The position numbers and the translations under genes are program-made. The notes under the pieces were generated by a model that was given only the letters and a program-made list of their open reading frames with translations, was not told the origin of the DNA and searched no databases. This document shows positions 10,142-64,000 of a DNA stretch of 64,000 bases, one piece after another. Numbering within the stretch: position 1 is the first letter of the stretch; every line of letters begins with the position of its first letter. This DNA comes from Streptomyces fradiae ATCC 10745 = DSM 40063 (GTDB taxonomy: Bacteria; Actinomycetota; Actinomycetes; Streptomycetales; Streptomycetaceae): the NCBI RefSeq assembly GCF_008704425.1, contig NZ_CP023696.1, forward strand, positions 124,001 to 188,000. Reading direction: 5' to 3'.

Positions 10142-10194
<53 letters not shown>

Positions 10195-10238
10195 CGAACG
10201 AACCGACCGCTGACCCCACGTCAGAAAGGCGGCACATC

Positions 10239-11353: not shown

Positions 11354-11356
11354 GCG

Positions 11357-12970: not shown

Positions 12971-13485
12971 ACGATGCGCGCACCGCGGCGAAGGGCGGGC
13001 CGCGCACCGGACCGGGGGTGGAGCCCCGCCCCCGGTCCGGGCGGGATCCGCAAGCCGGCCCGGAGCCGGGGACCGGACCGCGGCCGGGTCCCGGAACGGG
13101 CGGGGGCCCTCGAGTGGTGGCGGGCCCCGGGACGGAGCCGGTGTCCGGGCCCCGGACGCCCGACGGGCCCGACACCGATCCGGGTGCGGAGGCGGCGGCC
13201 CCCGGGGCCGGGCCGGAGCCGCGCCGCCGGGTGGAGCTGGACCCGGACTCCGTCGAGCGGGACCTGGCCCGGCTCGTCCTGACCGTGATCGAGCTGCTGC
13301 GCCAGCTCATGGAGCGCCAGGCCCTGCGCCGCGTGGAGGACGGGGACCTGACGGAGGACCAGGAGGAGCGGATCGGCACGACGCTGATGCTGCTGGAGGA
13401 CCGCATGGAGATCCTGCGCACCCGCTTCGGCCTGGAACCGGAGGACCTGAACATCGACCTGGGGCCACTCGGCCCCCTGCTGTGA
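12967..13485 (+). CDS. gvpK: Gas vesicle protein GvpK with Pro/Gly-rich extension
   Basis: A 172-residue protein. The GvpK domain is C-terminal (about residues 82-168): VELDPDSVERDLARLVLTVI, ELLRQLMERQALRRVEDG, DLTEDQEERIGTTLMLLEDR and a closing FGLEPEDLNIDLGPLGPLL. The first 80 residues are low-complexity Gly/Pro/Arg repeats (GPRTGPG, PGPGTGGGP), much longer than in most GvpK proteins. ATG at 12967 overlaps the gvpS stop. This is the last gene of the operon and is followed by a strong hairpin. Confidence 0.92.
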   Translation: MNDARTAAKGGPRTGPGVEPRPRSGRDPQAGPEPGTGPRPGPGTGGGPRVVAGPGTEPVSGPRTPDGPDTDPGAEAAAPGAGPEPRRRVELDPDSVERDLARLVLTVIELLRQLMERQALRRVEDGDLTEDQEERIGTTLMLLEDRMEILRTRFGLEPEDLNIDLGPLGPLL

Positions 13486-19997: not shown

Positions 19998-20837
19998 TCA
20001 GGAGGCCCTGCGGCGGCGGGTGGTGAGGAAGCAGGCCGCGGTGATGCCGGCGGCGGCCACGCTGGCCAGGGTCTGCGGCAGCACGTTGCGCTCCTGCGCG
20101 GTCGTGTCACCGCCGTGGCCGTGGTGGCTGACGGTCGACTTGGACAGGCCCGCCTCGATCTGCTGCTCGGTCGGCGCCTTCGGGACGGAGGCGGCCCTCG
20201 CCCCGGAGTACGTGACGTCGGAGCAGCTGTAGAACGCCTCGGGGCTGTCGTTGCGCTGCCAGATCTTGTAGAGGATGTGGCGGCCGGTGCGCTGCGGGAG
20301 GTTGCCGTCGAACTCGTACCAGCCCGTCGGCGCGGTCCGGGCGACGTTCGCCACGGCGACCGGGGTCTGTTCGAGGTCCGACCACTTCAGCGGCTTGGTG
20401 GGGTCGTATCCCTCCTTGGTGATGTAGACGGTCATCGTGCCGGGGTGGGCGGCGGTGACGCGGTACCTGAAGTGCAGCGGGCCGGCGGAGACGGGCGTGG
20501 CGGCCCAGTCGGTGCGGCCCCAGTCGAGCGCCTTGTACTTCTCGCGGTTGGCGGAGCACAGCTTGCCGTCGGGGATCAGCTGGCGGTGCTGCCCGTTGGC
20601 GTTGGCGATGTTGACCTCGTTCCAGTCGTAGAGCGGCTGGGTGCCGCTCGTCGCGACCAGGTCCTTGCACACCTGGGTGTCCGGGTGCTCGGGGCCCTCG
20701 GCGTAGCAGGCCGCGACCCGGCTGACGGGGCCGTACATCGTGCCGTGCGCCGACGCCTGCGCGGGGGTCAGGACGATCAGCAGGGGGGCCACCGCGGCGG
20801 CTGCCGCCGCTGTGCGGGTGGTCTTGCTCAGTGACAT
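19998..20837 (-). CDS. AA10 lytic polysaccharide monooxygenase (chitin/cellulose-active)
   Basis: A secreted copper monooxygenase of 279 aa. The signal peptide ends at AQASA, making His31 the mature N-terminus (HGTMYGPVSRVAACYAEGPE). His31 and His131 (TAAHPGTMTVYITK) form the copper histidine brace. The blocks WGRTDWAATPVSAGPLHFRY and HILYKIWQRNDSPEAFYSC-SDV are typical of the family. After the catalytic domain comes a linker and a C-terminal anchor: LPQT, a hydrophobic stretch (LASVAAAGITAACFL) and RRRR. This resembles a cell-wall sorting signal or a membrane anchor. The ATG at 20837 is chosen. A DasR-like site lies 60 nt upstream, suggesting control by N-acetylglucosamine. Confidence 0.92.
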   Translation of the reverse strand: MSLSKTTRTAAAAAAVAPLLIVLTPAQASAHGTMYGPVSRVAACYAEGPEHPDTQVCKDLVATSGTQPLYDWNEVNIANANGQHRQLIPDGKLCSANREKYKALDWGRTDWAATPVSAGPLHFRYRVTAAHPGTMTVYITKEGYDPTKPLKWSDLEQTPVAVANVARTAPTGWYEFDGNLPQRTGRHILYKIWQRNDSPEAFYSCSDVTYSGARAASVPKAPTEQQIEAGLSKSTVSHHGHGGDTTAQERNVLPQTLASVAAAGITAACFLTTRRRRAS

Positions 20838-48675: not shown

Positions 48676-49383
48676 TCAGGAGGGGCCGGTGGCCGCGGGG
48701 CCCGCGGGGAACCCTCCGGTGACGGTGGCGGACCGCCCGTCCGCGGCGCCCGCGATGACCGTGAACCGGTCGCCGCGGGCGTCCCGGTCGCCTTCGGCGT
48801 GGTTGTACTGGCCGGCGAAGACGTGCCGCCCGGCCGGGACGGTGCGCCCCGCGCCGAGGGTCCAGGTGTAGACGAGCGCGCCGGGCTCCTCCCGTACGGA
48901 GACGGCGAAGTGCTCGGCGGGCGGGGTGCGCCAGTGGCCGGTGGAGGCGACGCCACCGGTGCGGGCGACGCGCAGCTCGACGGTGAGCGCCGTCAGGGCG
49001 GTGGCGGTGTCGAAGGTGATGTTCGACTGGGCCCAGTAGCGGTTGCTGTGCGGATCGACGGCGCCGCCCCCGCGCAGGAAGCCGTCGGCGGCGCTGGTCG
49101 GGGCGGGGGTGACGGTCGGCCGCGCGGGGGGCGGCGGGTCCGCGGGACGGGCGGGGACCGGGGTGTCGCCGGGCAGCAGGGCGCGTACGCCGAGGCCGCC
49201 GACCGCGAGGACGCCCGCGACGGCGGCGGTGGCCAGGGCGACGCGCGGCCAGCGCCGGGCGGGCCGGTACCGCCGGCCGGGCGCGGGCCCGGCCATGCCG
49301 CGCTCCACCCGGGCCAGCATCCGCTCCCGGTCCGGCTGGTGCGCCTGGGCGGCGTCGCGGAGCGCTCGCTGCAGCTCGTCCAC
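48676..49383 (-). CDS. Single-pass membrane protein coupled to SigE-family sigma factor
   Basis: A 235-residue protein. A charged cytoplasmic N-terminus (MDELQRALRDAAQAHQPDRE) precedes one TM helix (VALATAAVAGVLAVGGLGV, residues about 50-68). A Pro-rich stalk leads to an extracytoplasmic beta-rich domain (SNITFDTATALTALTVELRV; HVFAGQYNHAEGDRDARGDR). The position and topology are those of an anti-sigma factor or associated sensor, but no zinc motif (HxxxCxxC) is present, so anti-sigma activity is inferred. Its GTG start overlaps the sigma stop by one base (TAGTG), indicating coupled translation. Confidence 0.82.
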   Translation of the reverse strand: MDELQRALRDAAQAHQPDRERMLARVERGMAGPAPGRRYRPARRWPRVALATAAVAGVLAVGGLGVRALLPGDTPVPARPADPPPPARPTVTPAPTSAADGFLRGGGAVDPHSNRYWAQSNITFDTATALTALTVELRVARTGGVASTGHWRTPPAEHFAVSVREEPGALVYTWTLGAGRTVPAGRHVFAGQYNHAEGDRDARGDRFTVIAGAADGRSATVTGGFPAGPAATGPS

Positions 49384-49916
49384 TAGTTCCTTCCTCCGAC
49401 CAGCTCCGACGCGGCGTCGCGGGTCCCGAGCAGCTGCTGGAGCTGCGCCATGGCCTTCGATGTCTGGCTCTTCACCGTACCCACGGAGACGCCGAGGGTG
49501 AGAGCCGTCTCCCGCTCGGACAGGTCGAAGGCGTGCCGGAGCACGACGCAGGCGCGCTTGCGGAACGGCAGGCGGCGCAGGGCGTCCCGCACGTCGACGA
49601 CGGCCGCCACGTCGGGGCCCTCGGTGTGCTCGGAGCGCTGCGACCAGAACAGCGCGACGCGGCGGCGTTCCCGTACGGCGCTGCGGACGCGGCTGCGGGC
49701 GAGGTTCGCGACGACGCCGCGGGCGTAGGCGGCGGGGTGCTGGGCGGCGCGGACGCGGTCCCAGCGGTGCCAGAGGGCGAGGAGCGCGTCGGCGGCGAGG
49801 TCGTCGGCCGCGTCCGCCTCGCCGGTCAGGAGGTGCGCGAGGCGGGCGAGTTCGGCGTGGTGGCGCTCGAAGAACGCGTGGAACTCCGCGGTGGCGTCGT
49901 CGGCGGACGTGCCCAC
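49383..49916 (-). CDS. ECF (SigE-family, SACE-type) RNA polymerase sigma factor
   Basis: A 177-residue group 4 sigma factor. Region 2 runs about residues 10-80 (FHAFFERHHAELARLAHLLT; DDLAADALLALWHRWDRV; AYARGVVANLARSRVRSAV). Region 4 runs about 105-160 (DVRDALRRLPFRKRACVVLR; FDLSERETALTLGVSVGTVK followed by SQTSKAMAQLQQLL). The AHLLTG and WDRV features are typical of the SigE-family group frequent in streptomycetes. GTG at 49916 has GGGGGAGG upstream. It is coupled to a membrane protein gene. A duplicated 20-bp element lies 144 nt upstream. Confidence 0.93.
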   Translation of the reverse strand: MGTSADDATAEFHAFFERHHAELARLAHLLTGEADAADDLAADALLALWHRWDRVRAAQHPAAYARGVVANLARSRVRSAVRERRRVALFWSQRSEHTEGPDVAAVVDVRDALRRLPFRKRACVVLRHAFDLSERETALTLGVSVGTVKSQTSKAMAQLQQLLGTRDAASELVGGRN

Positions 49917-50194: not shown

Positions 50195-53062
50195 TCAACC
50201 GCCGGCCGCCGTGAACCGGACGCGGGCGAGGCGGATTCGCCCGGTCAGGGTGATCCGCAGGTCCCGGACCCCGGCCGCCGTGAAGGGGATCTCCAGCGCG
50301 GTGTACGCGTACGGGCCGCCGGGCACCGCCGCCTCGGCGCGGACCGGGCCGGGTCCGGTGCCCTCCGCCGCGCCGGCGAGGACGACGGTGCCCGTGCCGG
50401 ACACCTCCACGGTGGCCGTCCGCACCCCGGCTCCGAAGTCGCAGGCCCGGTAGAGCAGTTCTCCCGGGCCGGTGCCCACCGGGGTGACGCAGTCGCCGGA
50501 GGCGCGGTCCCGGTCGGCGATCTCCGTGCCGCCCTGCTCGTCGTAGTCGGCGGCTTCGAGGCCACGCTCCAGGACGGGGCGCGGCGCGAGCGCCGGCCCA
50601 TCGACGCGCAGCCGCGCCTCCAGCCGCGGATCGGCGCTGGACGCCGCCGCCTCGACCGCGTACACACCCGGCTCCACCGTCCAGCGGCCGGCCGCGACGT
50701 CCCAGAACCCCAGCGCGTCGAGGGGCACCGCGAACTCCAGCCGCCGCCCCTCGCCCGGCGCGAGGTGGACGCGGCGGTGCGCGGCCAGTGCGCGGTGCGG
50801 GCGCGGCACCGAGGGGGCGAGCGCGCGGACGTACACCTGGGCGACCTCGTCGGAGGCGGCCGGGCCGGTGTTGGTGACGGTGAACGCGACGTGGACCGTG
50901 TCGCCGCGCCGCCGCGCGTCGAGGCCCGCGTAGGCGAAGTGGGTGTACGTCAGGCCGTGGCCGAACGGGAACAGCGGCCGGCCGTCGAAGTACAGGTAGG
51001 TCTGGCGGGCGCCGATCACGTCGTAGTCGAAGAGGTCCGGCAGGTCGGCGTCGGCGGCGTACCAGGTCTGCGGCAGCCGTCCGGCCGGGGAGACGTCCCC
51101 GGCGAGGACGCGGGCGAGCGCGGCGCCGGCGGCCTGCCCGCCGTGGGCGGTCCACAGCACGGCGGGGAGCGCGGCCGCCGCGTCGGGGATCGCGTAGGGG
51201 TAGGAGGAGGCGAGGACGAGGACGGTGCGGGGGTTCGCGGCGCGGGCGGCGCGCCAGAGCCGGTCCTGGGACTCGGGCAGGGCCAGGGTGGTGCGGTCCT
51301 CGGTCTCGCGGCCGTTGATGTGCGGGTCGTTGCCCGCGACGACGACCACGGTGTCGGCGGACGCGGCGGCCGCCGCGACCTCGTCGGTGCCGCGGCGGAC
51401 CGTCTCGACGGTGAGGACGGCCGGGGCGGGCCCGCCGTCGGCGGCAACCTTCGCGCCGTCGGCGGCGACGCAGAGGTGACCCCCCGTCCCGAGGTGCCGG
51501 AGGAGGTGGCCGTCGCCGTGCGGTTCGAGCCGGAACGTCTCCCGTACGACCCAGCCGCCCGGCCGGTCGGCCGAGGCCCGTACGCGCCCGTCGTCCGCGA
51601 CGGAGAGGTACCGCCCGTCGGGGGCCCGCAGGGTGAGGACCCCGCCGCCCCAGTCGGTGAGGGCGAACACGGTGCCCTCGCCGTCGGCGGTGAGCGGCGG
51701 CAGGTCGGTGCGCCCGGCGAGGAGCGCCGGGTCGAGGGCGCCCTCGGAGCCGGGCGCGGGCGCCGTCTCGGCGGCGCCGCCGGAGTCGGGGACGCGCAGC
51801 AGCCCGGCGGCGCAGCGCAGCCGTACCAGGTCGGCGCCCTCGGCGTGGACGACCAGGTCGGCGCCGAAGCGCTCCCGGATGCCGTCGAGGGGGGTGGAGC
51901 GGTGGAGGAGGGCTCCGCTGTACCAGTCGAGCTTGCACGTGTCGGCGAGCGGGCCGACGACGGCGACGCGCCGCCCGGCGGCCGGGTCGAGGGGCAGGAC
52001 GCCGTCGTTGACGAGGAGGACGGCGGCCTGTTCGGCGGCCTCGCGGGCGAGGGCGCGGTGCTCGGGGGTGTCGAAGGCGCCCGTGCCGGCGTGCGGGTCG
52101 AGCTCCGGGTCGAACTCGCCGAGCGCGAAGCGGACGTGGAGGTGGCGGCGTACGGCGGTGTCGACGTCGGACGGGTCGAGCAGGCCGCGGTCGAGGGCGC
52201 CGCGCAGGCGTGCGGTGGTCCGCGAGCCGTCGGTGCCGTGGTCGGTGAAGCTGTCGACCCCGGCGCGCAGGGCGGCGGCGGTGGCCTCCTCGTGGGTGGC
52301 GAAGTAGTGCTGGGAGTCGACGAGGTTGCTGGGCGCGCCGGCGTCGGAGCAGACCAGCAGCTCCTGGCCGGTCCAGGTGCGCAGCTGCTCGCGCAGGTGG
52401 GGCGAGAGGTGGTTGGGGCGGCCGTTGACCAGGTTGTAGGCCGGCATGACGCCGGCGACGGCGCCCGCCTCGACGGCGGTGCGGAAGGCCCGCAGGTCGT
52501 ACTCGTGCAGGACGCGGGGGCGGACGGAGGCGGAGCGGGTGTCGCGGCCGGTCTCGTTGTTGTGGGCGAGCCAGTGCTTGAGGACCGGGGCGGTGCGCCA
52601 GTACACGGGGTGGTCGCCGCGCAGGCCGCGGGTGTACGCGGTGGCGAGGGCGGAGGTGAGGGCGGGGTCCTCGGAGTAGCCCTCCTCGTTGCGGCCCCAC
52701 AGGGGGTTGCGCAGGAGGTTGACGGTGGGCGCCCAGACGTTGAGCCCGACGCGGTCGTCACGGGCGCGCATGGCCCGGGCCTCGCGGGAGACGGCTTCGC
52801 CGACGCGGCGGACGAGCTCCTCGTTCCAGGTGGCGCCGAGGCCCACGGCCTGCGGGAAGACCGTGGCCGGGCCCATCCAGGCGACGCCGTGCAGGGCCTC
52901 CTGTCCGGTGCGGAACGCGGCCAGGCCCAGCCGGTCGACGGCGGGGGCGAACTGGTGGAGCAGGGCGAGGCGCTCGTCGGGCGCGAGCCGCCCGAGCAGG
53001 TCGTCGACGCGCTGGTCGAACGGGAGCCGCGGGTCGCGGTAGGGCGGCCGGTCTGCGGTCAC
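50195..53062 (-). CDS. Glycoside hydrolase family 3 (beta-glucosidase/xylosidase)
   Basis: A 955-residue GH3 enzyme. The (beta/alpha)8 domain has APTVNLLRNPLWGRNEEGYS, the substrate-binding KHWLAHNNE and the nucleophile Asp240 in LLVCSDAGAPSNL. The alpha/beta sandwich (VAVVGPLADTCKLDWYSG) is interrupted by a beta-trefoil/fascin-like insert (LTLRAPDGRYLSVADDGRVR; LLRHLGTGGHLCVAADG). It then resumes with VVVVAGNDPHINGRETEDRT. A fibronectin-III-like domain and a CBM6-like tail finish the protein. No signal peptide, so it acts on imported oligosaccharides. GTG at 53062 has GAGGGG upstream. It diverges from the ABC/GH operon and shares its operator; beta-glucosidase or xylosidase specificity is open. 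Confidence 0.93.
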   Translation of the reverse strand: MTADRPPYRDPRLPFDQRVDDLLGRLAPDERLALLHQFAPAVDRLGLAAFRTGQEALHGVAWMGPATVFPQAVGLGATWNEELVRRVGEAVSREARAMRARDDRVGLNVWAPTVNLLRNPLWGRNEEGYSEDPALTSALATAYTRGLRGDHPVYWRTAPVLKHWLAHNNETGRDTRSASVRPRVLHEYDLRAFRTAVEAGAVAGVMPAYNLVNGRPNHLSPHLREQLRTWTGQELLVCSDAGAPSNLVDSQHYFATHEEATAAALRAGVDSFTDHGTDGSRTTARLRGALDRGLLDPSDVDTAVRRHLHVRFALGEFDPELDPHAGTGAFDTPEHRALAREAAEQAAVLLVNDGVLPLDPAAGRRVAVVGPLADTCKLDWYSGALLHRSTPLDGIRERFGADLVVHAEGADLVRLRCAAGLLRVPDSGGAAETAPAPGSEGALDPALLAGRTDLPPLTADGEGTVFALTDWGGGVLTLRAPDGRYLSVADDGRVRASADRPGGWVVRETFRLEPHGDGHLLRHLGTGGHLCVAADGAKVAADGGPAPAVLTVETVRRGTDEVAAAAASADTVVVVAGNDPHINGRETEDRTTLALPESQDRLWRAARAANPRTVLVLASSYPYAIPDAAAALPAVLWTAHGGQAAGAALARVLAGDVSPAGRLPQTWYAADADLPDLFDYDVIGARQTYLYFDGRPLFPFGHGLTYTHFAYAGLDARRRGDTVHVAFTVTNTGPAASDEVAQVYVRALAPSVPRPHRALAAHRRVHLAPGEGRRLEFAVPLDALGFWDVAAGRWTVEPGVYAVEAAASSADPRLEARLRVDGPALAPRPVLERGLEAADYDEQGGTEIADRDRASGDCVTPVGTGPGELLYRACDFGAGVRTATVEVSGTGTVVLAGAAEGTGPGPVRAEAAVPGGPYAYTALEIPFTAAGVRDLRITLTGRIRLARVRFTAAGG

Positions 53063-53099
53063 GTGGGGTTCCCCTCGCGGATGGTCTGGAGGCCTTCTT

Positions 53100-53113
53100 T
53101 CGAAGCGCTTCGA
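53100..53113. promoter_or_regulatory. LacI-type operator, GH3-proximal
   Basis: TCGAAGCGCTTCGA, a perfect 14-bp palindrome of the LacI/GalR class, lying just downstream of the -10 of the GH3 promoter. An identical copy is at 53269-53282. Confidence 0.85.
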
Positions 53114-53142
53114 TGCTCGAACCCGCCCCCCTCGGGTGTCAA
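53113..53142 (-). promoter_or_regulatory. Promoter of GH3 gene
   Basis: On the minus strand TTGACA (53142-53137), 18-nt spacer, GAGCAT (53118-53113). The -35 is a perfect match; the -10 is a moderate match. The operator begins at the last -10 base. Confidence 0.6.
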
Positions 53143-53229
53143 GGGAGCGCACGTCGCCATGTCGTCCACTCCCGCCCCGGCGGGTCTGGTGGCCGGAACG
53201 GGGGTCGCGGCGAATCTGCTCGGCGACCC

Positions 53230-53258
53230 TTGTGCGGCCGGTGGCGTTCACTTAGCCT
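53230..53258 (+). promoter_or_regulatory. Promoter of ABC transporter/glycosidase operon
   Basis: TTGTGC (53230-53235), 17-nt spacer, TAGCCT (53253-53258). The expected transcription start is near 53265, just before the second operator. Moderate match to the vegetative consensus. Confidence 0.5.
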
Positions 53259-53268
53259 CGCTGCAACA

Positions 53269-53282
53269 TCGAAGCGCTTCGA
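53269..53282. promoter_or_regulatory. LacI-type operator, ABC-proximal
   Basis: Second identical copy of TCGAAGCGCTTCGA, immediately downstream of the proposed plus-strand transcription start and 127 nt before the solute-binding protein gene. Confidence 0.85.
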
Positions 53283-53409
53283 CAGGGAGTGCGGTCGTGA
53301 ACGCGGCCGTGCCGGTGCACCGCTTCGGTCCCCGCACGTCCCGTCCCGGACACCGCGGCCGACGGCGGACACCGCCGCGTGTCCCGGCGCGCCACGAAGG
53401 GTTGACGCA

Positions 53410-55146
53410 ATGACGCCGAACTCCCCCGCACTCCCCGCGCCCGGCCCCGGCACGGGCCCCGTCCCCGGCCCGGGGCGCGGCGCCGGTCCCGGCCGGCGGA
53501 GCTTCCTGGCCTCGACGGCGGTGGCCGCCGCGGCGGCTGCGGGCGGCCTGCCCCTGCTCGCCGCCTGCGGCGGGGGCGCACGGGAGCAGCGCAAGGAGGG
53601 CGCCACCTCGGGCAAGGACGCGGCGGGCATCCTTCCCGCCTACGTGCCGCGGGAGATCGTGAAGCCGGACATCCCGGCGAGGAACGGCTCCTCGGCGGGG
53701 TTCACCACCGCCGTCGCGCCGGAACGGCTCAGGACCTCCGTGCCCCGCAGGCTCGGCAAGGGCGGCACGGTGCGGATCATGGCGCCGCTGTGGGGTTCGC
53801 CGCCGCCGGGCGGCAACGCCTGGTACCGGGCGATGGACGAGGCCATCGGCGTGACGACCCGCTGGCAGAACCAGGACGGCAACACCTACGACGAGAAGCT
53901 CGGCGCCGTCCTGGCCTCCAGCGAGATACCGGACGTGGTGGTGGTGCCCGGCTGGAACCTCACCGGCAGGATCCCCGGCGCGGTGAACGCCAAGTTCGCC
54001 GACCTCGGCCCCTACCTGTCCGGCGACCGGGTCAAGGAGTACCCGAACCTGGCCGCCGTACCGACCGACGCCTGGCAGCGGGCGATCTTCGGCGGCGCCC
54101 TGCGCGGCATCCCGATGCCCGCCTCGTACGTCGTCAACATCGTGCCGTACTACCGGCAGGACCTCTTCGAGGAGCGCGGTTACCAGGTGCCCGGCAGCGC
54201 CGGCGAGTTCCTGGCCTGGGCGAAGGAGGCCACCAGCGCCAAGGCGAAGGTGTGGGCCTGCGACGACATGAAGTGGACCGCGTTCCACGCCTTCGGCGTC
54301 CTGCCCGGCAGCGACCGGGCCCTGTGGTGGAACACGGTCGACGGCAGGCTCGTCAACCGGGTCGAGACCGAGGAGTACCTGGAGGCCCTGGAATGGGTCC
54401 GCAAGCTGTACGCGGCGAACGTCGTGCACCCGGACGCCAGGGCGCAGAACCAGGGGGACGCCGGCAACCGCTTCACCTCCGGGCAGGTCCTCGTCTACAA
54501 CAACGACCTGTCCCACTGGTACGTCAAGAGCGTCGAGCAGGCCGGGCAGAACCCGGACTTCCGCATGGGCGGGATGGACATCTTCGGTCATGACGGCTCC
54601 GCGCCCCGGCTGTTCGCCCAGCAGCCGGCGAACATGTTCACCTTCGTCAGCGAGAAGGCGCCCGAGCCGGTCGTCCGGGACTTCCTCGCCGTCGCCGACT
54701 TCTGCGCGGCGCCCTACGGCACGAGGGAGCGCCTGCTCACCGACTACGGCGTGGCGGGCGTCCACCACACGCTGAGCGGGGGCATGCCGGTGAAGAACGA
54801 CACCGGGCACCTCCAGGTGACCGGCGCGTTCGACCTGGTCGGCGACCCCGCCCCGTACCTCGCGCACCCCGACCGCCCGGACCTGGTCAAGGCGCAGGTG
54901 GAGTGGCAGCAGCGGATGGGCGCCCACACGGTGAAGACCCCCTTCTACGGACTGACGGTCACCGAGCCGAGCCGCTGGGCCAACCTCGCCGACGACTTCG
55001 AGCAGCTGGAGGACGACGTGGTGCGGGGCCGCAAGAAGATCGGCGACGTCCAGCAGGCGGTGTCCGAGTGGCGGAGCAGGGGCGGCGACCGGCTCCGGGA
55101 CTGGTACCGCGGGCTGCTGGACGACGCCGGCTCCGCGGCGAACTGA
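53410..55146 (+). CDS. ABC transporter oligosaccharide-binding lipoprotein
   Basis: A 578-residue extracellular solute-binding protein of the long (LplA/CUT1-associated) type. A Tat-like RR at 29-30 in GPGRRSFLASTAV precedes a lipobox LLAAC with lipidated Cys53. The mature protein has the usual type II lobes (VRIMAPLWGSPPPGGNAWYR; DVVVVPGWNLTG; ALRGIPMPASYVVNIVPYYR) and many aromatic residues for sugar stacking (KWTAFHAF; LSHWYVKSV). It starts at ATG 53410. It is followed by two permease genes and, later, three glycosidases, so it should bind plant-wall oligosaccharides; xyloglucan oligosaccharides are the likely ligand. Confidence 0.93.
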   Translation: MTPNSPALPAPGPGTGPVPGPGRGAGPGRRSFLASTAVAAAAAAGGLPLLAACGGGAREQRKEGATSGKDAAGILPAYVPREIVKPDIPARNGSSAGFTTAVAPERLRTSVPRRLGKGGTVRIMAPLWGSPPPGGNAWYRAMDEAIGVTTRWQNQDGNTYDEKLGAVLASSEIPDVVVVPGWNLTGRIPGAVNAKFADLGPYLSGDRVKEYPNLAAVPTDAWQRAIFGGALRGIPMPASYVVNIVPYYRQDLFEERGYQVPGSAGEFLAWAKEATSAKAKVWACDDMKWTAFHAFGVLPGSDRALWWNTVDGRLVNRVETEEYLEALEWVRKLYAANVVHPDARAQNQGDAGNRFTSGQVLVYNNDLSHWYVKSVEQAGQNPDFRMGGMDIFGHDGSAPRLFAQQPANMFTFVSEKAPEPVVRDFLAVADFCAAPYGTRERLLTDYGVAGVHHTLSGGMPVKNDTGHLQVTGAFDLVGDPAPYLAHPDRPDLVKAQVEWQQRMGAHTVKTPFYGLTVTEPSRWANLADDFEQLEDDVVRGRKKIGDVQQAVSEWRSRGGDRLRDWYRGLLDDAGSAAN

Positions 55147-55170
55147 CACACCGAGCGCGAGGAGGGACCC

Positions 55171-56394
55171 GTGTCGCAGCACAGCACGGTGCCGGAGGGC
55201 CGGCCCGCGCCGGGGGACGGCGCCGCACAGGAGGGGGCGCCGTCCCCCGGCGCGGGCCCCGGACCGGACGGCGGCGGCGGACCGGACAGCGGTCCCGGAC
55301 CGGACAGCGGCCCCGGACCGGACGGCGGCGGCCCAGGTCCCGGACCGGGCTCGGAGCCGGGCCCGGCCGGCGGCGCCGTCGTGCCGGCCGACCGGGGCCG
55401 GGACGGGTACCGGAGCCGCGCCCGCGACCGGGGCCGGGCCCGCGACCGCGAGGGAGGCCGTCAGGGCCGGGCCGGCCCGCGCGCCCGGCTGCGGCGCGAC
55501 CGGGCGCTGGTCCTCATGACGCTCCCGGCGCTCCTGCTCGTGCTGGTCTTCAGCTACGTGCCCGTGCTGGGCAACGTGGTCGCCTTCCAGGACTACGACC
55601 CGTACCTCAGCGAGAACGGCTTCACCGCCATGCTGGAGAGCCCGTGGATCGGGCTGGAGCACTTCGAACGGCTCCTGTCCGACCCGGCGTTCTGGCGGGC
55701 GGTGGAGAACACGCTGGTGCTGTTCCTGCTCCAGCTCGTGCTGTTCTTCCCGGTGCCCATCGGCCTCGCGCTGCTGGTCAACAGCGTCGTCCGGCCCCGG
55801 GTGCGGGCGGTCGCCCAGGCCGTCCTGTACCTGCCGCACTTCTTCTCGTGGGTACTGGTCGTCACCGTCTTCCAGCAGATCCTCGGCGGCGCGGGCATCA
55901 TCGCCCAGACGCTGCGGCGGTACGGCGTCGAGGGCTTCGACCTGATGACGGACCCCGGCTTCTTCAAGATCCTCGTGACCTCCGAGGGCGTCTGGAAGGA
56001 CGCCGGCTGGGGCGTCGTCGTCTTCCTCGCCGCGCTGTCGGCGGTCAGCCAGGACCTGTACGAGGCGGCGGCCATGGACGGCGCCGGGCGCTGGCGGCGC
56101 ATGTGGCACGTGACGCTTCCGGCGCTGCGCCCCGTGATCGCCCTGCTGCTGGTGCTGCGCGTCGGCGACGCGCTGACCGTGGGCTTCGAGCAGCTCCTCC
56201 TCCAGCGGGACGCCGTCGGCCCCGACGCGGCGGAGGTACTGGACACGTACGTCTGGTGGAACGGCATCCGCAACCAGGACTTCGGGTACGCGGCCGCCGC
56301 CGGGCTCGTCAAGGGCGTGGTCGGCCTCGGCCTGGTCCTCGCGGCGAACAAGGCCGCCCACCTCATGGGCGAGCAGGGGGTGTACCGGAAGTGA
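55171..56394 (+). CDS. ABC sugar permease, LplB-type, with low-complexity N-terminus
   Basis: A 407-residue inner-membrane permease. After a 110-residue Gly/Pro/Arg-rich cytoplasmic extension containing GPGPDSGPGPDGG-type repeats, six TM helices follow (first LVLMTLPALLLVLVFSYVPV). The EAA loop signature is EAAAMDGAGRWRRMWHVTLP, which couples to the ATPase. The extension is unusual for the family. GTG at 55171 follows GGAGGGA. Its stop overlaps the next permease start (GTGA). Confidence 0.92.
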   Translation: MSQHSTVPEGRPAPGDGAAQEGAPSPGAGPGPDGGGGPDSGPGPDSGPGPDGGGPGPGPGSEPGPAGGAVVPADRGRDGYRSRARDRGRARDREGGRQGRAGPRARLRRDRALVLMTLPALLLVLVFSYVPVLGNVVAFQDYDPYLSENGFTAMLESPWIGLEHFERLLSDPAFWRAVENTLVLFLLQLVLFFPVPIGLALLVNSVVRPRVRAVAQAVLYLPHFFSWVLVVTVFQQILGGAGIIAQTLRRYGVEGFDLMTDPGFFKILVTSEGVWKDAGWGVVVFLAALSAVSQDLYEAAAMDGAGRWRRMWHVTLPALRPVIALLLVLRVGDALTVGFEQLLLQRDAVGPDAAEVLDTYVWWNGIRNQDFGYAAAAGLVKGVVGLGLVLAANKAAHLMGEQGVYRK

Positions 56395-57308
56395 GGCGGA
56401 AACGACGCGGGGGCCGGGCGGCCCCGTCCCGCCCCGTCTGGGAGGAGGAGCCCCGCAGGGCGGGGCTGGCCGCCAAGGGGATCGTGCTCGCCGGGGCGTG
56501 CCTGGCGATCCTCTTCCCGCTGTGGATCGTGGTCGTCACGAGCCTGTCGTCCCGCCGGACGATCGACGAGGCCGGCGGTCTCGTCGTCGTGCCGCGGGAC
56601 ATCACCTTCGTCGCGTACCAGGAGCTGCTGGGCGGCGGGCAGGTGCAGCGGGCGGCGCTGGTCAGCGTGGGCGTCACCGTCGTCGGCACGCTGTTCAGCA
56701 TGGCCGTGTCGGTGCTGTGCGCCCACGGCCTGTCGCGGCCCGGTTCGGCGGGCCACCGCTGGATCCTGATGACGCTGCTGGCCACCATGTTCTTCGGCGC
56801 CGGGCTGATCCCCACGTACCTGCTGGTACAGGCGCTGGGGCTGACCGACACCTATCTGGCGCTGATCCTGCCGAGCGCGGTGAGCGTCTTCAACATCCTG
56901 GTGCTGCGGGCGTTCTTCATGAACATCTCGCCGGAGCTGATCGACAGCGCCCGCATCGACGGCGCCGGGGAGCTGCGCATCCTCTGGCGGATCGTCATTC
57001 CGCTGTCCCGGGCGGTGCTCGCCGTGATCGCGCTGTTCTACGCGGTCGGCTACTGGAGCGCCTGGTTCAACGCCTCCCTGTACCTCTCCGACCAGGACAT
57101 GATGCCGCTGCAGAACGTCATGATCCAGATCGTGCAGAAGCAGGAGCCGCCGACCGGGCTGGCCCAGATGGTCAGGACCGGACAGCTCTCCCCGCTGGCG
57201 GTGCAGATGGCCGTGATGGTGCTGGCGCTCGTCCCGGTCGCGGTCGCCTCCCCCTTCGTGCAGAAGCACTTCAGGAAGGGGATGCTCACCGGCGCCGTGA
57301 AGGGCTGA
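56391..57308 (+). CDS. ABC sugar permease, CarB/LplC-type
   Basis: A 305-residue permease partner. Six TM helices start with LAAKGIVLAGACLAILFPLW. The EAA loop reads DSARIDGAGELRILWRIVIP. The C-terminus SPFVQKHFRKGMLTGAVKG is the hallmark of this subfamily. GTG at 56391 overlaps the preceding stop by four bases. No ATP-binding protein is encoded here; streptomycete sugar ABC systems commonly share the MsiK ATPase. Confidence 0.93.
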   Translation: MRRKRRGGRAAPSRPVWEEEPRRAGLAAKGIVLAGACLAILFPLWIVVVTSLSSRRTIDEAGGLVVVPRDITFVAYQELLGGGQVQRAALVSVGVTVVGTLFSMAVSVLCAHGLSRPGSAGHRWILMTLLATMFFGAGLIPTYLLVQALGLTDTYLALILPSAVSVFNILVLRAFFMNISPELIDSARIDGAGELRILWRIVIPLSRAVLAVIALFYAVGYWSAWFNASLYLSDQDMMPLQNVMIQIVQKQEPPTGLAQMVRTGQLSPLAVQMAVMVLALVPVAVASPFVQKHFRKGMLTGAVKG

Positions 57309-57371
57309 CCGGCCGCGGTCCGGCCCCCGGGGACCGGCCGCCCCTTCCTTCCCCTCCCCCCCCGTACCGGT

Positions 57372-57408
57372 GCCTGCCGGGGTGTGATCACCCCCCGCCC
57401 CGGCAGGC
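57372..57408 (+). terminator. Hairpin between permease and GH74 genes
   Basis: An 11-bp stem GCCTGCCGGGG/CCCCGGCAGGC around a 15-nt loop that itself holds GGTGTGATCACC. It may attenuate transcription into the glycosidase genes or stabilise the upstream mRNA. Confidence 0.55.
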
Positions 57409-57447
57409 GCCGCCTCTCCCGCCCCCTCACAGAGACCGAGGCATGCC

Positions 57448-59679
57448 ATGCGCCCCTCCCCGCCGAGCCGGCGGTCCGTCCTCGGCGGCGCCGCCACCGC
57501 CGCGCTCGCCGCCGCGTCCGCCGCCGCCCACGCCGCCCCGCGCGAGGCGCCCGGCCCGCCGCCCCACGCCCCCGAGCCGGGCGCGGCGGACCGGCCGGCG
57601 GGCGGCTCGGCCCCCTACCGCTGGCGCACCGCCGTGATCGGCGGCACCGGCTTCGTCACGGGCGTGCTGTTCCACCCGGCCGTACGGGACCTCGCCTACG
57701 CCCGCACCGACATCGGCGGTGCCTACCGCTGGGACGGCCGGGGCGCCCGCTGGATCCCGCTCACCGACCACCTGGGCTGGGACGACTGGAACCTGCTGGG
57801 CGTCGAGGCGATGGCCGTCGACCCCGCCCACCCCGACCGGATCTACCTGGCGCTCGGCACCTACACCCAGCCGTGGGCCGGCCCCGGCGCGGTGCTGCGC
57901 TCCGACGACCGGGGCCGGACGTGGGCCCGCACCGACCTGGACGTGCGGCTCGGCGCCAACGAGGACGGCCGGGGCACCGGCGAGCGGCTGCTGGTCGACC
58001 CGCGCGACCCGGCGACCCTGTGGCTGGGCACCCGTCACGACGGGCTGCTCGTCTCCCGCGACCGGGGCGCCACGTGGGCCCCGGCGCCCTTCCCCGCCAC
58101 CCCCTCCGCGACGGGCCAGGGCGTGACCCTGCTGGCCGCCGCGGGCCGGACGGTGTACGCGGGCTGGGGCGACGGCGGGGGCGCCCTCTACCGCACCGCG
58201 CCCGGCGGCGGCTGGGAGGCGGTGCCGGGCCGGCCGGGCGGCCCGTCGGCGCGGGTGCCGGTCCGCGCCGCGTACGACGCGGGGACCCGTGCCCTGTACG
58301 TCACGTACGCCGACGCGCCCGGCCCCAACGGCCAGACGGACGGCTCGGTCCACCGCCTGGACACGGCGACCGGGACGTGGACCGACGTGACCCCGGTCCG
58401 GCCGGGCCCCGGCGACACGTTCGGGTACGGCGGGGCGGCCACCGACCCGCGCCGTCCCGGCACCGTCGTCGTCTCCACCAACAACCGCTGGGGCCCGGTG
58501 GACACCCTCTTCCGGTCGACGGACGGCGGCGCCACCTGGACGTCCCTGAAGGACACCGCCGTGTTCGACGTGTCCGAGACGCCGTATCTGGCGTGGGGCG
58601 CCGAGCGGCCCAAGTTCGGCTGGTGGATCCAGGCGCTCGCGCTCGACCCGTTCGACTCCCGGCACCTGGTGTACGGCACCGGCGCGACCCTGTACGGCAC
58701 GCGCGACCTGCGCCACTGGGCGCCGGAGGTCCGGGGCCTGGAGGAGAGCTCGGTGCGCCAGCTCCTCTCCCCGCCCTCGGGCGGTGCCCACCTGCTCAGC
58801 GGGCTCGGCGACGTCGGCGTGATGTACCACGACCGCCTCACCGCCTCCCCCTCGCGGGGCATGGCCGCGAACCCGGTGTTCGGCACCGCCACCGGCCTGG
58901 CCCTGGCGCCGCTGCGGCCCTCGTACGTGGTGCGGTCCGGATGGGGCGACCACGGCAACGGCGCGTACTCCACCGACGGCGGGCGCACCTGGACGCCGTT
59001 CGCCGCCCAGCCCGCCCCCGCCCGGCAGGCCCCCGGCCCGATCGCCACCGGCGCGGACGGCCGCGTCCTGCTGTGGTCCTTCGTCCACGGGGACGGCACC
59101 CGCTCCGCCACCCACCGCTCCACCGACGGCGGCGCCCACTGGACCGAGGTCCCCACCTTCCCCGCGGGCGCCGCCCCGGTCGCCGACCCGGTCGACCCCC
59201 GGCGCTTCCACGCCTACGACACCGCCGCCGGCACCCTGTACACCAGCACCGACGGCGGCGCGACCTTCAGCGCCACGGCGACCGGCCTGCCGTCCGGCGA
59301 CGTCCAGTACCGGATCGCGGCGGCGCCCGGCCGCAGCGGCGACCTGTGGCTCTCCGCCAAGGACCACGGCCTGTTCCGGTCCGTGGACGGCGGGCGCGCC
59401 TTCGCCCGGACGGCCGGCTGCCGGGCCTCGTACGCCCTGGGCTTCGGCCGGGCGGCGCCCGGCGGGGACGGCTACCCGGCGGTGTACCAGACCGGCACGG
59501 TGGGGGACGTGACGGGCGTGTACCGCTCCGACGACGCCGGGCGGAGCTGGGTCCGGATCAACGACGACGCCCACCAGTGGGGCTGGACCGGCGAGGTGGT
59601 CACCGGCGACCCGCGCCGCTACGGCCGGGTCTACCTCGGCACCAACGGCCGCGGCGTCCAGTACGGCGACCCGGTCTGA
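57448..59679 (+). CDS. GH74 xyloglucanase-like secreted protein
   Basis: A 743-residue exported beta-propeller enzyme. A Tat-like signal peptide (SRRSVLGGAATAALAAASAA) precedes two seven-bladed propellers typical of GH74. Many BNR-type blades are visible (RSDDRGRTWARTDLD; VSRDRGATWAPA; RSTDGGATWTSLKD; YSTDGGRTWTPFA; RSDDAGRSWVRIND). The N-terminal AYARTDIGGAYRWDGRG and WDDWNLLGVEAMAVDP blocks are characteristic of the family, and the Asp in RTDIGG is the likely catalytic base. GH74 enzymes hydrolyse the beta-1,4-glucan backbone of xyloglucan. It follows the permease genes and overlaps the GH42 gene by one base. Confidence 0.93.
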   Translation: MRPSPPSRRSVLGGAATAALAAASAAAHAAPREAPGPPPHAPEPGAADRPAGGSAPYRWRTAVIGGTGFVTGVLFHPAVRDLAYARTDIGGAYRWDGRGARWIPLTDHLGWDDWNLLGVEAMAVDPAHPDRIYLALGTYTQPWAGPGAVLRSDDRGRTWARTDLDVRLGANEDGRGTGERLLVDPRDPATLWLGTRHDGLLVSRDRGATWAPAPFPATPSATGQGVTLLAAAGRTVYAGWGDGGGALYRTAPGGGWEAVPGRPGGPSARVPVRAAYDAGTRALYVTYADAPGPNGQTDGSVHRLDTATGTWTDVTPVRPGPGDTFGYGGAATDPRRPGTVVVSTNNRWGPVDTLFRSTDGGATWTSLKDTAVFDVSETPYLAWGAERPKFGWWIQALALDPFDSRHLVYGTGATLYGTRDLRHWAPEVRGLEESSVRQLLSPPSGGAHLLSGLGDVGVMYHDRLTASPSRGMAANPVFGTATGLALAPLRPSYVVRSGWGDHGNGAYSTDGGRTWTPFAAQPAPARQAPGPIATGADGRVLLWSFVHGDGTRSATHRSTDGGAHWTEVPTFPAGAAPVADPVDPRRFHAYDTAAGTLYTSTDGGATFSATATGLPSGDVQYRIAAAPGRSGDLWLSAKDHGLFRSVDGGRAFARTAGCRASYALGFGRAAPGGDGYPAVYQTGTVGDVTGVYRSDDAGRSWVRINDDAHQWGWTGEVVTGDPRRYGRVYLGTNGRGVQYGDPV

Positions 59680-61655
59680 TGCCCGCGCTCGGCGACGCCA
59701 CCCGGGGCCGGATCCTCTTCGGCGGCGACTACAACCCGGAGCAGTGGCCCGAGGAGACCTGGGCCGACGACATGCGGCTGATGAGGGACGCCGGGGTGAA
59801 CTCGGTGACCGTCGGGGTGTTCTCCTGGGCCCGCATCGAACCGCGCCCCGGCGTGCGGGACTTCGGCTGGCTCGACCGGCTGATGGACCTGCTGCACGCG
59901 CACGGCGTCGGCGCGGTGCTGGCCACGCCCACCGCGTCGCCGCCGCCGTGGCTGGGCGCCCGGCACCCCGGCACGCTGCCCCGCGACGAGGACGGGCGGA
60001 CCGTCTGGTGGGGCTCCCGCCAGCACTTCTGCCCCAGCTCGCCCGTCTACCGCTCGCACGCGGCGGCGATCACCGGGGACCTGGCGGCCCGGTACGCCGG
60101 CCACCCGGCCCTGACGATGTGGCACATCGGCAACGAGTACGGCACGCACTGCTGGTGCGACGAGACCGCCCGGCACTTCCGCCGCTGGCTCGCCGCCCGC
60201 CACGGCACCCTCGACGCGCTCAACGAGGCGTGGGGCACGGCCTTCTGGTCGCAGCGGTACGACACCTGGGACGAGGTGATCCCGCCGCGCCGCGCCCAGT
60301 ACCTGCGCAACCCGGCGCACCTGCTGGACTTCCGCCGCTTCACCTCCGACGCGCTCCTGGAGTGCCACCGGGCCGAGCGGGACGTCGTCGCCCGGCACAC
60401 CCCGCACATCCCGGTCACGACGAACCTCATGGCCTTCTGGCAGGGGCTGGACGGCTGGGCGTGGGCCGCCGAGGAGGACGCCGTGTCCGTGGACGTCTAC
60501 CCGGACCCGAGGGACCCGCTCGGCGGCCAGTACAACGCCCTCGTCGCGGACCTGACCCGGTCGCAGGCGGGCGGCGGGCCGTGGATGGTGATGGAGCAGG
60601 CCGCCGGCGCGGTCAACTGGCGGGACGTCAACGCACCCAGGCCGGCCGGCCAGAACCGGCTGCTGTCCCTCCAGGCCGTGGCGCGCGGCGCGGACGCCGT
60701 CTGCTACTTCCAGTGGCGCCAGTCCCGGCAGGGCGCCGAGAAGTTCCACTCCGCGATGGTGCCGCACGCCGGGGAGCACGGCCGCGCCTTCCGGGAGGTG
60801 AAGCGGATCGGCGCCGAACTCGCCGCGCTGGGCCCGGAGGTCGCCGGCACCCGGGTCGCGGCGGACGTGGCGGTGCTGCACGACTGGCACGCCTGGTGGG
60901 GCACCCTGCAGGAGGGGCGGCCCTCGCGGGAGGCGGAGTACCCGGAGGTGGTCCGGGCGTGGCACCGGGCCCTGTGGGAGGCCGGCCTCACCACGGCGTT
61001 CGCCCACCCCGGGCACGACCTGCGCGGCTACCGCATGGTGGTGGCGCCGCAGCTGTACCTGCTGCCGGACGCGGCGGTGGAGAACCTGGCCGCCTACGTG
61101 CGCGGCGGCGGCACGCTCGTGTGCGGCTTCCTCACCGGGACCGCCGACGCGCACGACCGCATCCGGCCCGGCGGCATGGACGAGCGGCTGCGGGCGCTGC
61201 TCGGCCTGCGCACCCTGCACGCGTGGTGGCCGCTGGAGCGGGGCGAGAGCGTCGAGTGCGACGGCTTCACCGGCACCGTGTGGTCGGAGGAGCTGGAGGC
61301 CGCCGACGCGGAGGTGGTGGCCGCCTACCGGAGCGGGGAGACGGCGGGGCTCCCGGCCGTGCTGCGCCGGGGCGGCGCCTGGTACGTCTCGACGCTGCCG
61401 GACCCGGACGGGCTGCGCGGCCTGCTGGTGCGGGCCGCCGCCGGGGCGGGCGTGCGCCCGGTGCTGGAGGGGCTGCCGGCCGGGGTGGAGGCGGTGCGGC
61501 GGGGGCGGCTGCTGTTCGTGCTGAACCACGGGCGGGAGCCGGTCGAGGTCCCGGTGCCGGGTGCCTTCCGCGACCTGCTGTCCGGTGCGGACGTGGCGGG
61601 CGCGCTGCGGCTGGAGCGGTACGGGGTGGCGGCGCTGCGGGAGGCGGGGGCGTGA
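59679..61655 (+). CDS. GH42 beta-galactosidase
   Basis: A 658-residue intracellular GH42 enzyme. The TIM barrel starts with ILFGGDYNPEQWPEETWADD; the acid/base is Glu153 in WHIGNEYG and the nucleophile Glu306 in WMVMEQAAG. The trimerisation domain (from about residue 395) and a small beta domain follow. The ATG at 59679 overlaps the GH74 stop (TGATG) and its own stop overlaps the next start (GTGA). In this context it should remove galactose from xyloglucan side chains or other plant galactosides; linkage specificity is inference. Confidence 0.95.
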   Translation: MPALGDATRGRILFGGDYNPEQWPEETWADDMRLMRDAGVNSVTVGVFSWARIEPRPGVRDFGWLDRLMDLLHAHGVGAVLATPTASPPPWLGARHPGTLPRDEDGRTVWWGSRQHFCPSSPVYRSHAAAITGDLAARYAGHPALTMWHIGNEYGTHCWCDETARHFRRWLAARHGTLDALNEAWGTAFWSQRYDTWDEVIPPRRAQYLRNPAHLLDFRRFTSDALLECHRAERDVVARHTPHIPVTTNLMAFWQGLDGWAWAAEEDAVSVDVYPDPRDPLGGQYNALVADLTRSQAGGGPWMVMEQAAGAVNWRDVNAPRPAGQNRLLSLQAVARGADAVCYFQWRQSRQGAEKFHSAMVPHAGEHGRAFREVKRIGAELAALGPEVAGTRVAADVAVLHDWHAWWGTLQEGRPSREAEYPEVVRAWHRALWEAGLTTAFAHPGHDLRGYRMVVAPQLYLLPDAAVENLAAYVRGGGTLVCGFLTGTADAHDRIRPGGMDERLRALLGLRTLHAWWPLERGESVECDGFTGTVWSEELEAADAEVVAAYRSGETAGLPAVLRRGGAWYVSTLPDPDGLRGLLVRAAAGAGVRPVLEGLPAGVEAVRRGRLLFVLNHGREPVEVPVPGAFRDLLSGADVAGALRLERYGVAALREAGA

Positions 61656-64000
61656 CGCCGGCGTGGGGAGGCCCGCGGCCGGCGGACGGGGCGGGGGCGG
61701 ACGGGACGGGCGCGGGGGCGGGCGAGGCGGGCGCGGGCCGGGCGGGCGCGGGCCGGGTCGCCGCGCCGCCGGGCGGGGGCGCGGCGGGGACGGGCGGGGG
61801 CGCGGCGGGGACGGGCGGGGGTGCGGCGGGCCGGTGGCCGGGCGGCGCGGACGCCGGCTCGGTACGCACCGGCTCGGGCGGTGGCTCCGCCGACGGGAGC
61901 GGCACGGGAACGGACCCGGCGGGCGGAGGGCCGGAGGGCGCGGACCCGTTGGACCCGTTGGGCGGAAGCCCGGACGGCGCGGACCCGGCGGGCGCGGACC
62001 CGTTGGGCGCGGACCCGGCGGGCGGGGGGCCGGTGCACGGGACGTGGGAGGCGGAGCCCGCGGCGCGCTGGGAGGACGCGTTCCTGAGCGGCAACGGCCG
62101 CCACGGCGCCCTCGTCCACGGCGATCCCCACGACGAGCGGGTGATCGTCACCCATCACGCGCTGGTGCGGCCCGTACCGGCCGCGGACACCCGTCCTCCC
62201 CGGCTGGCCGGACGGCTCGCGGAGCTGCGGGACCGGCTGCTGGCCGGGGACACGGCGGCGGGCGACGAATTCACGGACGGGCGTCCGCTGCGCTGGGTGG
62301 GCTCCTTCCACCCGGCGTTCGCGGTGCGGGTGCGCCGGGGCGGGGCGCCACCGGGGCCGGGCGGTGTGCCGGGCTACCGGCGGGAGGTGGCCTTCGCGAC
62401 GGGCGTGGTCCGGGCCTCCGGCGGAGGCCGGGAGAGCCGGGTGTTCGTCTCGCGCGCCGACGACGTGGTCGTCCAGTACGTCACGGGCGGGCCCGCCGTC
62501 ACCGGGATCCGCCTGGACGCGGACCTGCCGGGCGCGCCGCCCGGCCTGGCCGTACGGCACGGCGCCGCGCCGCTGCCGGGCGGGGCGCTGCTGACGCTGC
62601 GGGCCCGCCACCCGGAGGGCGGCGGCGGGTACACGGGGGTGGCCCTCGTGGTCGTGGACGGCGGCGAGGCGGAGCCGGTGGGCGGCGGGGCGGCGCCGTC
62701 CGGCGCCACGGCCGCGCCGGACGGCGGGGGCGTACGGCTGCGGGGCGCCGTGCGCGGGGTGCTGGTGCTGACCCGTGTGCACCGGCACGCCGGGACATCG
62801 GACGCGCAGGACGTGCCGGCCGAGGCGGCGCGGCTGCGCGCCCTGCTGGAGGGCGCCGAGGGGACCGCCGCGGGGTACGCCCGGCTGCTGGCCCGGCACG
62901 AGGAGGCGCACCGGGCGGCGTACGAGCGGGTCGTCCTCGACCTGGGCGGCGAGAGGGCCGAGCGGGCCATGCCGGGGAGCGCGCTGCTGGCCCGCCGGCG
63001 CGGGGCGGCGCTGCTGGAGCGGCTGTTCGCGGCGGGCCGCTACCACCTGCTGTCGGCGAGCGGGATGCTGCCGCCCCGGCTGGTGGGGCTGTGGACCGGT
63101 GACTGGGACACCGCCTGGTCCGGGGCGTTCACCACCGACGCCAACCTGAACCTCCAGACCGCGTCGGCACCCGCCGCCGACCTGCCGGAGGTGGTGGAGG
63201 CGCACGCGGCGCTGGTGTACGGGCAGCTGGACGACTGGCGGGACAACGCGCGGGCCGTGTTCGGGGCGCGCGGCGTGGTCGCCCCGGCCCACACGGACGG
63301 CGTGTCGGGACACTCGTACCACTTCCAGCGCGCCTACCCGCTGCACGTGTGGACGGCGGGCGCGGACTGGCTGCTGCTGCCGCTCCTGGAGCACGCCGAG
63401 ACGACCGGGGAGACCGACCGGCGGCTGGTGGGCGCGCTCGCCGAGGTGGCGCGGTTCTACGAGGACTTCCTGACCCGGACGGGCCCCGACGGGCGGATCG
63501 TGGTGGTCCCGTCGTACTCGCCGGAGAACCGCCCCGCCGGCGCGGGCCGGGTCACCGTCAACGCGACGATGGACATCGCCGCCGCCCGCCACGCCCTCAC
63601 CGCGGCGGCGGCGCACCTCCCCGCCGACGCGGAGCGGCTGCGGGCACTGGCGGCCCGGCTGCCCGCCTACCGGGTCAACGGCGACGGGGCGCTCGCCGAA
63701 TGGGCCTGGCCGGGCCTGAACGACACGTACGACCACCGCCACCTCAGCCACCTGTACCCGGTGTGGCCGCTGGGCGAGGTCAACCCGTACGACACCCCCG
63801 GCCTGGCGCGGGCCGCGCACCGGGCGCTGGAGCTGCGGGGCGCGGAGAACGACTCGGCCCACGGCCATCTGCACCAGGCGCTGGTCGCGGCGCGGCTGCG
63901 GGACGCCGGGCGGGCGGCGGGGTCGCTGCGCCGGGTGCTGGAGGGGGACTTCTTCCACGCCTCGCTGATGAGCTCCCACTATCCGCGGCGGCGGGTGTAC
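61652..64000 (+). CDS. GH95 alpha-L-fucosidase-like, C-terminus cut by window edge
   Basis: At least 783 residues are present. The first 130 are Gly/Ala/Asp low complexity. The GH95 N-terminal beta domain follows (HGTWEAEPAARWEDAFLSGN), then the (alpha/alpha)6 barrel. Family catalytic features are visible: NLN at 498-500, Glu625 in YSPENRP and the HRHLSHLYPVWP signature from 695. The usual NINTEMNYW segment is diverged to NLNLQTASAPAADL. GTG at 61652 overlaps the GH42 stop. Family members remove alpha-1,2-L-fucose or galactose, as found on fucosylated xyloglucan. The last 30-60 residues are missing. Confidence 0.92.
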   Translation, partial: MTPAWGGPRPADGAGADGTGAGAGEAGAGRAGAGRVAAPPGGGAAGTGGGAAGTGGGAAGRWPGGADAGSVRTGSGGGSADGSGTGTDPAGGGPEGADPLDPLGGSPDGADPAGADPLGADPAGGGPVHGTWEAEPAARWEDAFLSGNGRHGALVHGDPHDERVIVTHHALVRPVPAADTRPPRLAGRLAELRDRLLAGDTAAGDEFTDGRPLRWVGSFHPAFAVRVRRGGAPPGPGGVPGYRREVAFATGVVRASGGGRESRVFVSRADDVVVQYVTGGPAVTGIRLDADLPGAPPGLAVRHGAAPLPGGALLTLRARHPEGGGGYTGVALVVVDGGEAEPVGGGAAPSGATAAPDGGGVRLRGAVRGVLVLTRVHRHAGTSDAQDVPAEAARLRALLEGAEGTAAGYARLLARHEEAHRAAYERVVLDLGGERAERAMPGSALLARRRGAALLERLFAAGRYHLLSASGMLPPRLVGLWTGDWDTAWSGAFTTDANLNLQTASAPAADLPEVVEAHAALVYGQLDDWRDNARAVFGARGVVAPAHTDGVSGHSYHFQRAYPLHVWTAGADWLLLPLLEHAETTGETDRRLVGALAEVARFYEDFLTRTGPDGRIVVVPSYSPENRPAGAGRVTVNATMDIAAARHALTAAAAHLPADAERLRALAARLPAYRVNGDGALAEWAWPGLNDTYDHRHLSHLYPVWPLGEVNPYDTPGLARAAHRALELRGAENDSAHGHLHQALVAARLRDAGRAAGSLRRVLEGDFFHASLMSSHYPRRRVY
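61670..62045 (+). repeat. Low-complexity minisatellites in GH95 N-terminus
   Basis: Several in-frame tandem arrays occur one after another: GGGCGCGGGCC-type, then GCGGCGGGGACGGGCGGGGG-type, then GCGGACCCGTTGGGC/GCGGACCCGGCGGGC units. They encode GAG, GGGAAGTG and ADPLG/ADPAG repeats before the catalytic part starts. Confidence 0.8.

Follow-up and report, generated by a model that had tools for sequence, protein, structure and literature searches.

The window, a 64,000-nucleotide stretch covering positions 124001 to 188000 of the single 6.73-Mb contig of Streptomyces fradiae ATCC 10745, holds a group of glycoside hydrolase (GH) and transport genes at its right-hand end (Table 1). A GH3 gene on the minus strand stands divergent from an operon encoding a solute-binding protein (SBP), two permeases, and GH74, GH42, and GH95 proteins, an arrangement that the earlier note had described and that gene calling, Pfam searches, and whole-length comparison bore out. 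Of the parts that would make up a xyloglucan locus, a β-galactosidase gene (GH42) and the genes of an oligosaccharide importer (SBP and two permeases) are thus present. The gene order is identical in dozens of Streptomyces species, so that the set stands far beyond chance. The earlier note had also proposed looking for a LacI-family gene past position 64000; one lies there (lacI), and its product has both a LacI helix-turn-helix and a periplasmic-binding-like domain. By eye, the SBP and GH74 N termini are Tat-like signals, and no signal peptide is evident in GH3, GH42, or GH95, which makes a cytoplasmic location probable for these three.

Elsewhere in the window, a gene for an ECF sigma factor of the SigE family lies directly left of GH3 and overlaps a possible anti-sigma gene (48676-49916, minus strand). 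A run of small genes at 9425-13485 resembles a gas vesicle protein cluster by eye, and 19998-20837 (minus strand) encodes a secreted protein with the mature start HGTMYGPVSR, similar to AA10 lytic polysaccharide mono-oxygenases.

Table 1. Features of the locus, numbered by position in the window (which stops at 64000)
Feature	Position	Strand	Basis or remark
GH3 exo-glycosidase (β-glucosidase or similar), 955 aa	50195-53062	-	Pfam GH3 N, C and Fn3 domains
Operator 1, TCGAAGCGCTTCGA, GH3 promoter	53100-53113		
TTGACA, -35-like element of GH3 promoter	53137-53142	-	Kept in relatives; consensus of 72 loci
SBP promoter: TTGTGC (53230-53235), 17 bp, TAGCCT (53253-53258)	53230-53258	+	Consensus CTTGTGC...CACTTAACCT of 72 loci
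Operator 2, TCGAAGCGCTTCGA, SBP operon promoter	53269-53282		169 bp from operator 1
SBP, solute-binding lipoprotein, Tat-like signal (RRSFLAS...LLAACGG)	53410-55146	+	Pfam SBP_bac_8; sequence
ABC permease 1 (UgpA/MalF type)	55171-56394	+	Pfam BPD_transp_1
ABC permease 2 (UgpE/MalG type), 4-bp overlap with permease 1	56391-57308	+	Pfam BPD_transp_1
GH74 endo-xyloglucanase (predicted), 743 aa, Tat-like signal	57448-59679	+	Pfam BNR/sortilin repeats; PDB GH74 xyloglucanases, E ~1e-149
GH42 β-galactosidase	59679-61655	+	Pfam GH42, three domains, E 7e-148
GH95 glycosidase (α-L-fucosidase or α-L-galactosidase)	61652-64294	+	Pfam GH95; runs past the window
Y_phosphatase3 remnant, 94 aa	64332-64616	+	Beyond window
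LacI-family regulator gene (lacI)	64755-65774	-	Beyond window
Weak operator near lacI	65805-65818		Beyond window
Operator 3, upstream of lacI	65870-65883		Beyond window

Enzymes and importer

The GH74 protein is a genuine member of its family, its best PDB matches being GH74 xyloglucanases that cover residues 53 to 743. Residues D88 and D455, which we take to be the two catalytic aspartates of the family, are invariant in 73 orthologues. The designation of this gene as xyloglucanase family in the earlier note therefore holds, since the protein is full length, keeps both aspartates, and has xyloglucanases as its solved relatives. No carbohydrate-binding module was found in it. In PoXEG74 of P. 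odorifer, an endo-processive xyloglucanase, processivity requires the pair Trp347/Trp348 (PMC10317168). That pair is lacking here: W348 is kept in 73/73 sequences, mostly followed by Ala, Gly, or Ser. Retention of one of the two processivity tryptophans suggests an endo-dissociative enzyme. The GH3 protein keeps its nucleophile, D240, and E586/E588 of the acid/base region in 71 of 73 orthologues, the other two having gaps at these positions; against 5yot, which stands for a candidate isoprimeverose-producing reading, the match was middling (1e-53, the best match being 1e-73).

The GH95 assignment rests on Pfam (E 2e-56) and on a predicted model that matches 7kmq with a TM score of 0.83 (E 7e-42), which indicates the family fold; the model served for the fold only, being poor around the catalytic Asn, with confidence below 50 at residues 351-368. 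The nearest solved relative is XacAfc95 (7KMQ), from a Xanthomonas xyloglucan locus. In AfcA, the catalytic residues are E566, N421, and N423 (PMC10154630). The Glu of the SPEN motif and the second catalytic-base Asn are invariant in 66/66 orthologues of the S. fradiae protein. The first catalytic-base Asn position is Asp in 54 of the 66, and in this genome too, so that the NxN motif is non-canonical, and the D766 region is rewritten. By family, the enzyme would be an α-L-fucosidase or an α-L-galactosidase, and its substrate is probably α-L-fucose. Of the claim that GH42 removes galactose and GH95 fucose, both family assignments were confirmed, and the fucose specificity is weakened by the Asp at one catalytic-base position. 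As called, the gene also encodes an N-terminal extension rich in Gly, Ala, and Asp, about 125 residues long (61652-62029), that is absent from the orthologue in Streptomyces sp. DH12, and the true start may lie further inside the called gene.

There is no ATPase gene in the operon, and none of the solved structures is closely related to the SBP. The genome carries three MalK-type ATPase genes, one of which, at 3.047 Mb, is an orphan without permease neighbours, as expected of MsiK. Because this orphan exists, the sharing of MsiK that had been suggested for the importer is plausible.

Missing genes and the relatives

It had been suggested that an α-xylosidase of family GH31 might lie just right of the window, but no GH31 gene lies in the 38 kb examined there. 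Of the two GH31 genes in the genome, at 798 and 1104 kb, the second scores 1213 bits against the curated α-xylosidase equivalog model NF007940 (cut-off 606), lies 0.92 Mb from the locus, overlaps the xylulokinase gene xylB by 4 bp, and adjoins the xylose isomerase gene xylA and a ROK-family regulator gene. These xylB and xylA surroundings independently mark its predicted product as a xylose-releasing enzyme.

For comparison, we took the 80 best-matching loci, all from Streptomyces, and the following counts are conditional on that choice. Among the 63 loci with complete flanks, GH3, SBP, both permeases, GH74, and GH42 are present in all 63, GH95 in 55, and GH12 in 60. An α-xylosidase-type GH31 gene, encoded in the S. 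fradiae genome and absent from the locus itself, lies at the locus in 42 of the 50 relatives whose fetched stretch includes lacI. In 36 of the 50 it is downstream of lacI and MeXyl31-like (MeXyl31 being the best solved relative, E 2e-204, of the one copy tested, L014), and in 6 an orthologue of the S. fradiae α-xylosidase, of the NF007940 equivalog, stands beside GH3. The position of the α-xylosidase gene thus varies, from the xyloglucan cluster in some species to the xylose operon in this genome. Neither GH31 is at the locus in the remaining 8, which include the nearest relative, Streptomyces sp. DH12 (L011). Compared with L011, a 1.49-kb stretch comprising GH12 and most of a phosphatase gene is missing in S. 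fradiae, most simply through a deletion, which would have left the 94-aa remnant; no GH12 gene is left anywhere in the genome.

One could read these losses as a locus decaying in this strain, with xyloglucan use impaired or vestigial for want of the clustered GH12 and GH31. The loss of GH12 from the genome, the truncated phosphatase gene as a scar, and an α-xylosidase gene without an operator (see below) would fit such decay. However, the remaining genes are all open and conserved, the operators and promoters are intact, GH74 and the distant α-xylosidase cover the missing steps, and nearby L011 likewise has no GH31 at the locus, which together make decay quite unlikely. Still less probable is a locus for another wall polymer containing β-galactosides, such as galactan or arabinogalactan, in which case GH74 would act on mixed β-glucans. 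GH42 enzymes do accept several β-galactosides, and GH95 has more than one known activity and a divergent active site here; yet the GH74 family has high specificity for xyloglucan (PMC8245568) and is full length here, α-xylosidases and GH12 cluster with GH74 in the relatives, and the stretch showed no recognisable gene for a galactanase or an arabinanase. A role in xyloglucan use, as the earlier note had it, is supported by GH74, by the kinship of GH95 with XacAfc95, and by the α-xylosidases and GH12 at the locus in relatives.

Operators and their spacing

With at most one mismatch allowed, the 6.7-Mb genome contains exactly three copies of the palindrome TCGAAGCGCTTCGA, at the GH3, SBP, and lacI promoters; the same whole-genome search gave no copy at the α-xylosidase gene. 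Operators 1 and 2 each lie directly downstream of a conserved promoter-like element, which on the SBP side has the form CTTGTGC-N17-TAACCT. The site is found in 244 of 393 sampled Streptomyces genomes, operator counts being inflated by a coding coincidence in which the 14-mer falls within a conserved dihydrodipicolinate-synthase-like gene (L095, L099, and L102); these sites and that of L098, all within coding sequence, were left uncounted as regulon members. The divergent operator pair is present in 158 of the 393, a reversed control pattern matched in none of them, and none of 15 genomes representing other genera in the order carries the pair. Some relatives carry the site again, ahead of partial locus duplicates or of a distinct SBP-permease-permease-GH31 cluster. 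In L094, L097, L100, and L103, it is the exact operator that precedes such a cluster, which again ties it to α-xylosides, and L101 has the operator next to the gene of a related LacI protein (47% identity). The operator is a ready probe for the regulon.

The unexpected part is that the divergent operators form a helically phased pair, as would befit a DNA-looping repressor. Across 149 pairs the spacing is quantised, falling at 158-160, 168-173, 179-184, 191-195, and 202-206 bp with almost nothing between, that is, in clusters about 159, 170, 182, 193, and 204 bp; a period of 11.2 bp fits best (resultant length 0.82). There are a few other deviating spacings, for example 109, 187, 188, and 190 bp. 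Kinship was controlled by comparing independent pairs of tips on a tree of four proteins, where 13 changes of at least 4 bp gave a mean cosine of 0.72 at 11.2 bp, a value reached in 0 of 20,000 random draws. With the same loci and tree, the distances from permease 2 to GH74, from operator 2 to SBP, and from SBP to permease 1 showed no 11.2-bp period. The distances from operator 1 to the GH3 start and from the lacI operator to its start are nearly constant and hence uninformative as spacing controls. In further, previously unused pairs, 15 of 16 fell in the fitted phase with a mean cosine of 0.67, the out-of-phase pair (G431) having a spacing of 176 bp; as their genomes are related, a probability calculated from them is optimistic.

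Such quantisation, here at 11.2 bp, is what a repressor acting through DNA loops in living cells would be expected to leave; looping by E. coli LacR in vivo has given 10.95 to 11.6 bp per turn (PMC1762422 and PMC8501960). The simplest explanation would be that the regulator bridges the two divergent operators, and such bridging is probable because the spacing is held to whole helical turns. By eye, the C terminus of the regulator has no obvious tetramerisation zipper, so looping may need another contact. It might instead be argued that the spacing reflects shared ancestry or promoter architecture and that the repressor works at each promoter separately, without a loop; the sampled genomes are kin, and each operator, lying next to a promoter, could shut that promoter by itself. 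Against this stand the phased changes among independent tip pairs, as opposed to the flat control distances, and the lacI promoter, where a weaker second site lies at 65-66, 71, 89-91, or 101-103 bp and the pair distances cluster too, near 66, 89-91, and 101-103 bp. We therefore consider separate repression rather unlikely and favor looping of the divergent xyloglucan promoter region by the LacI-family regulator as the probable reading, with selection holding about 14 to 18 whole turns between the operators. The genus would then offer a natural in vivo measurement, in a bacterium of high GC content, of the DNA repeat, at about 11.2 bp per turn, and the quantised spacing opens looping by an actinobacterial sugar repressor to direct test.

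A probable xyloglucan locus and known systems

Overall, we are confident that this is a locus for the utilisation of xyloglucan oligosaccharides under a LacI-family repressor, with a probable loop. Secreted GH74 would cut xyloglucan outside the cell, and the SBP and two permeases, energised by a shared MsiK ATPase encoded elsewhere, would import the oligosaccharides. In the cytoplasm these would be dismantled by GH95 (removing probably α-L-fucose), GH42 (galactose), the α-xylosidase of the xylulokinase operon, and GH3 (glucose). The dedicated repressor would bind TCGAAGCGCTTCGA at the GH3, SBP, and lacI promoters and probably bridge the two divergent operators. Gene families, catalytic residues, operators, conservation, and phasing can be read directly from the DNA; the substrate and inducer, the order of hydrolysis, the pairing with MsiK, and the loop are as we infer them. 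Counting against the reading are the absence of GH31 and GH12 from the locus, an α-xylosidase gene without an operator copy, and a GH95 that departs from the canonical NxN motif. Streptomyces are major degraders of plant litter in soil, hence the interest of a xyloglucan locus in this genus; good descriptions of such loci exist for Bacteroidetes, Xanthomonas, and Clostridia, and a search covering part of the literature found none described in Streptomyces.

Among known systems, the Xanthomonas XyGUL (PMC8245568) likewise clusters GH74, GH95, and β-galactosidase genes, includes GH31, and adjoins xylose isomerase and xylulokinase genes, and, among solved structures, that of its GH95 (7KMQ) comes nearest to the S. 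fradiae enzyme. It differs in having TonB transporters rather than ABC import, GH35 rather than GH42, and a CE20 esterase. The Ruminiclostridium cellulolyticum system (PMC4780118) differs in its cellulosomal enzymes, with no fucosidase named in the abstract, and, going by a title cited in PMC10766802, in positive regulation by the two-component system XygS/XygR. The importer Athe_2052-2054 of Anaerocellum bescii (PMC12710961) is alike as a Gram-positive ABC system for intact xyloglucan oligosaccharides with its ATPase encoded elsewhere, but there GH74 belongs to a separate enzyme, CelF (GH74-CBM3-CBM3-GH48), and LacI goes unmentioned. The Streptomyces CebR regulon (PMC4898821) resembles the present one in its LacI/GalR-like repressor, its 14-bp palindrome centred on GCGC, and its plant-polymer genes; the CebR site, however, is TGGGAGCGCTCCCA, and many genes respond to cello-oligosaccharides, whereas here TCGAAGCGCTTCGA occurs at three sites of one locus. 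Finally, Actinoplanes AcrC (PMC5526262) is likewise a repressor of the LacI family, its two operators lie between divergent genes at a distance of 182 bp, and looping was proposed for it too; it differs in controlling acarbose genes, and its looping was suggested from that single spacing, without the comparative phasing data available here.
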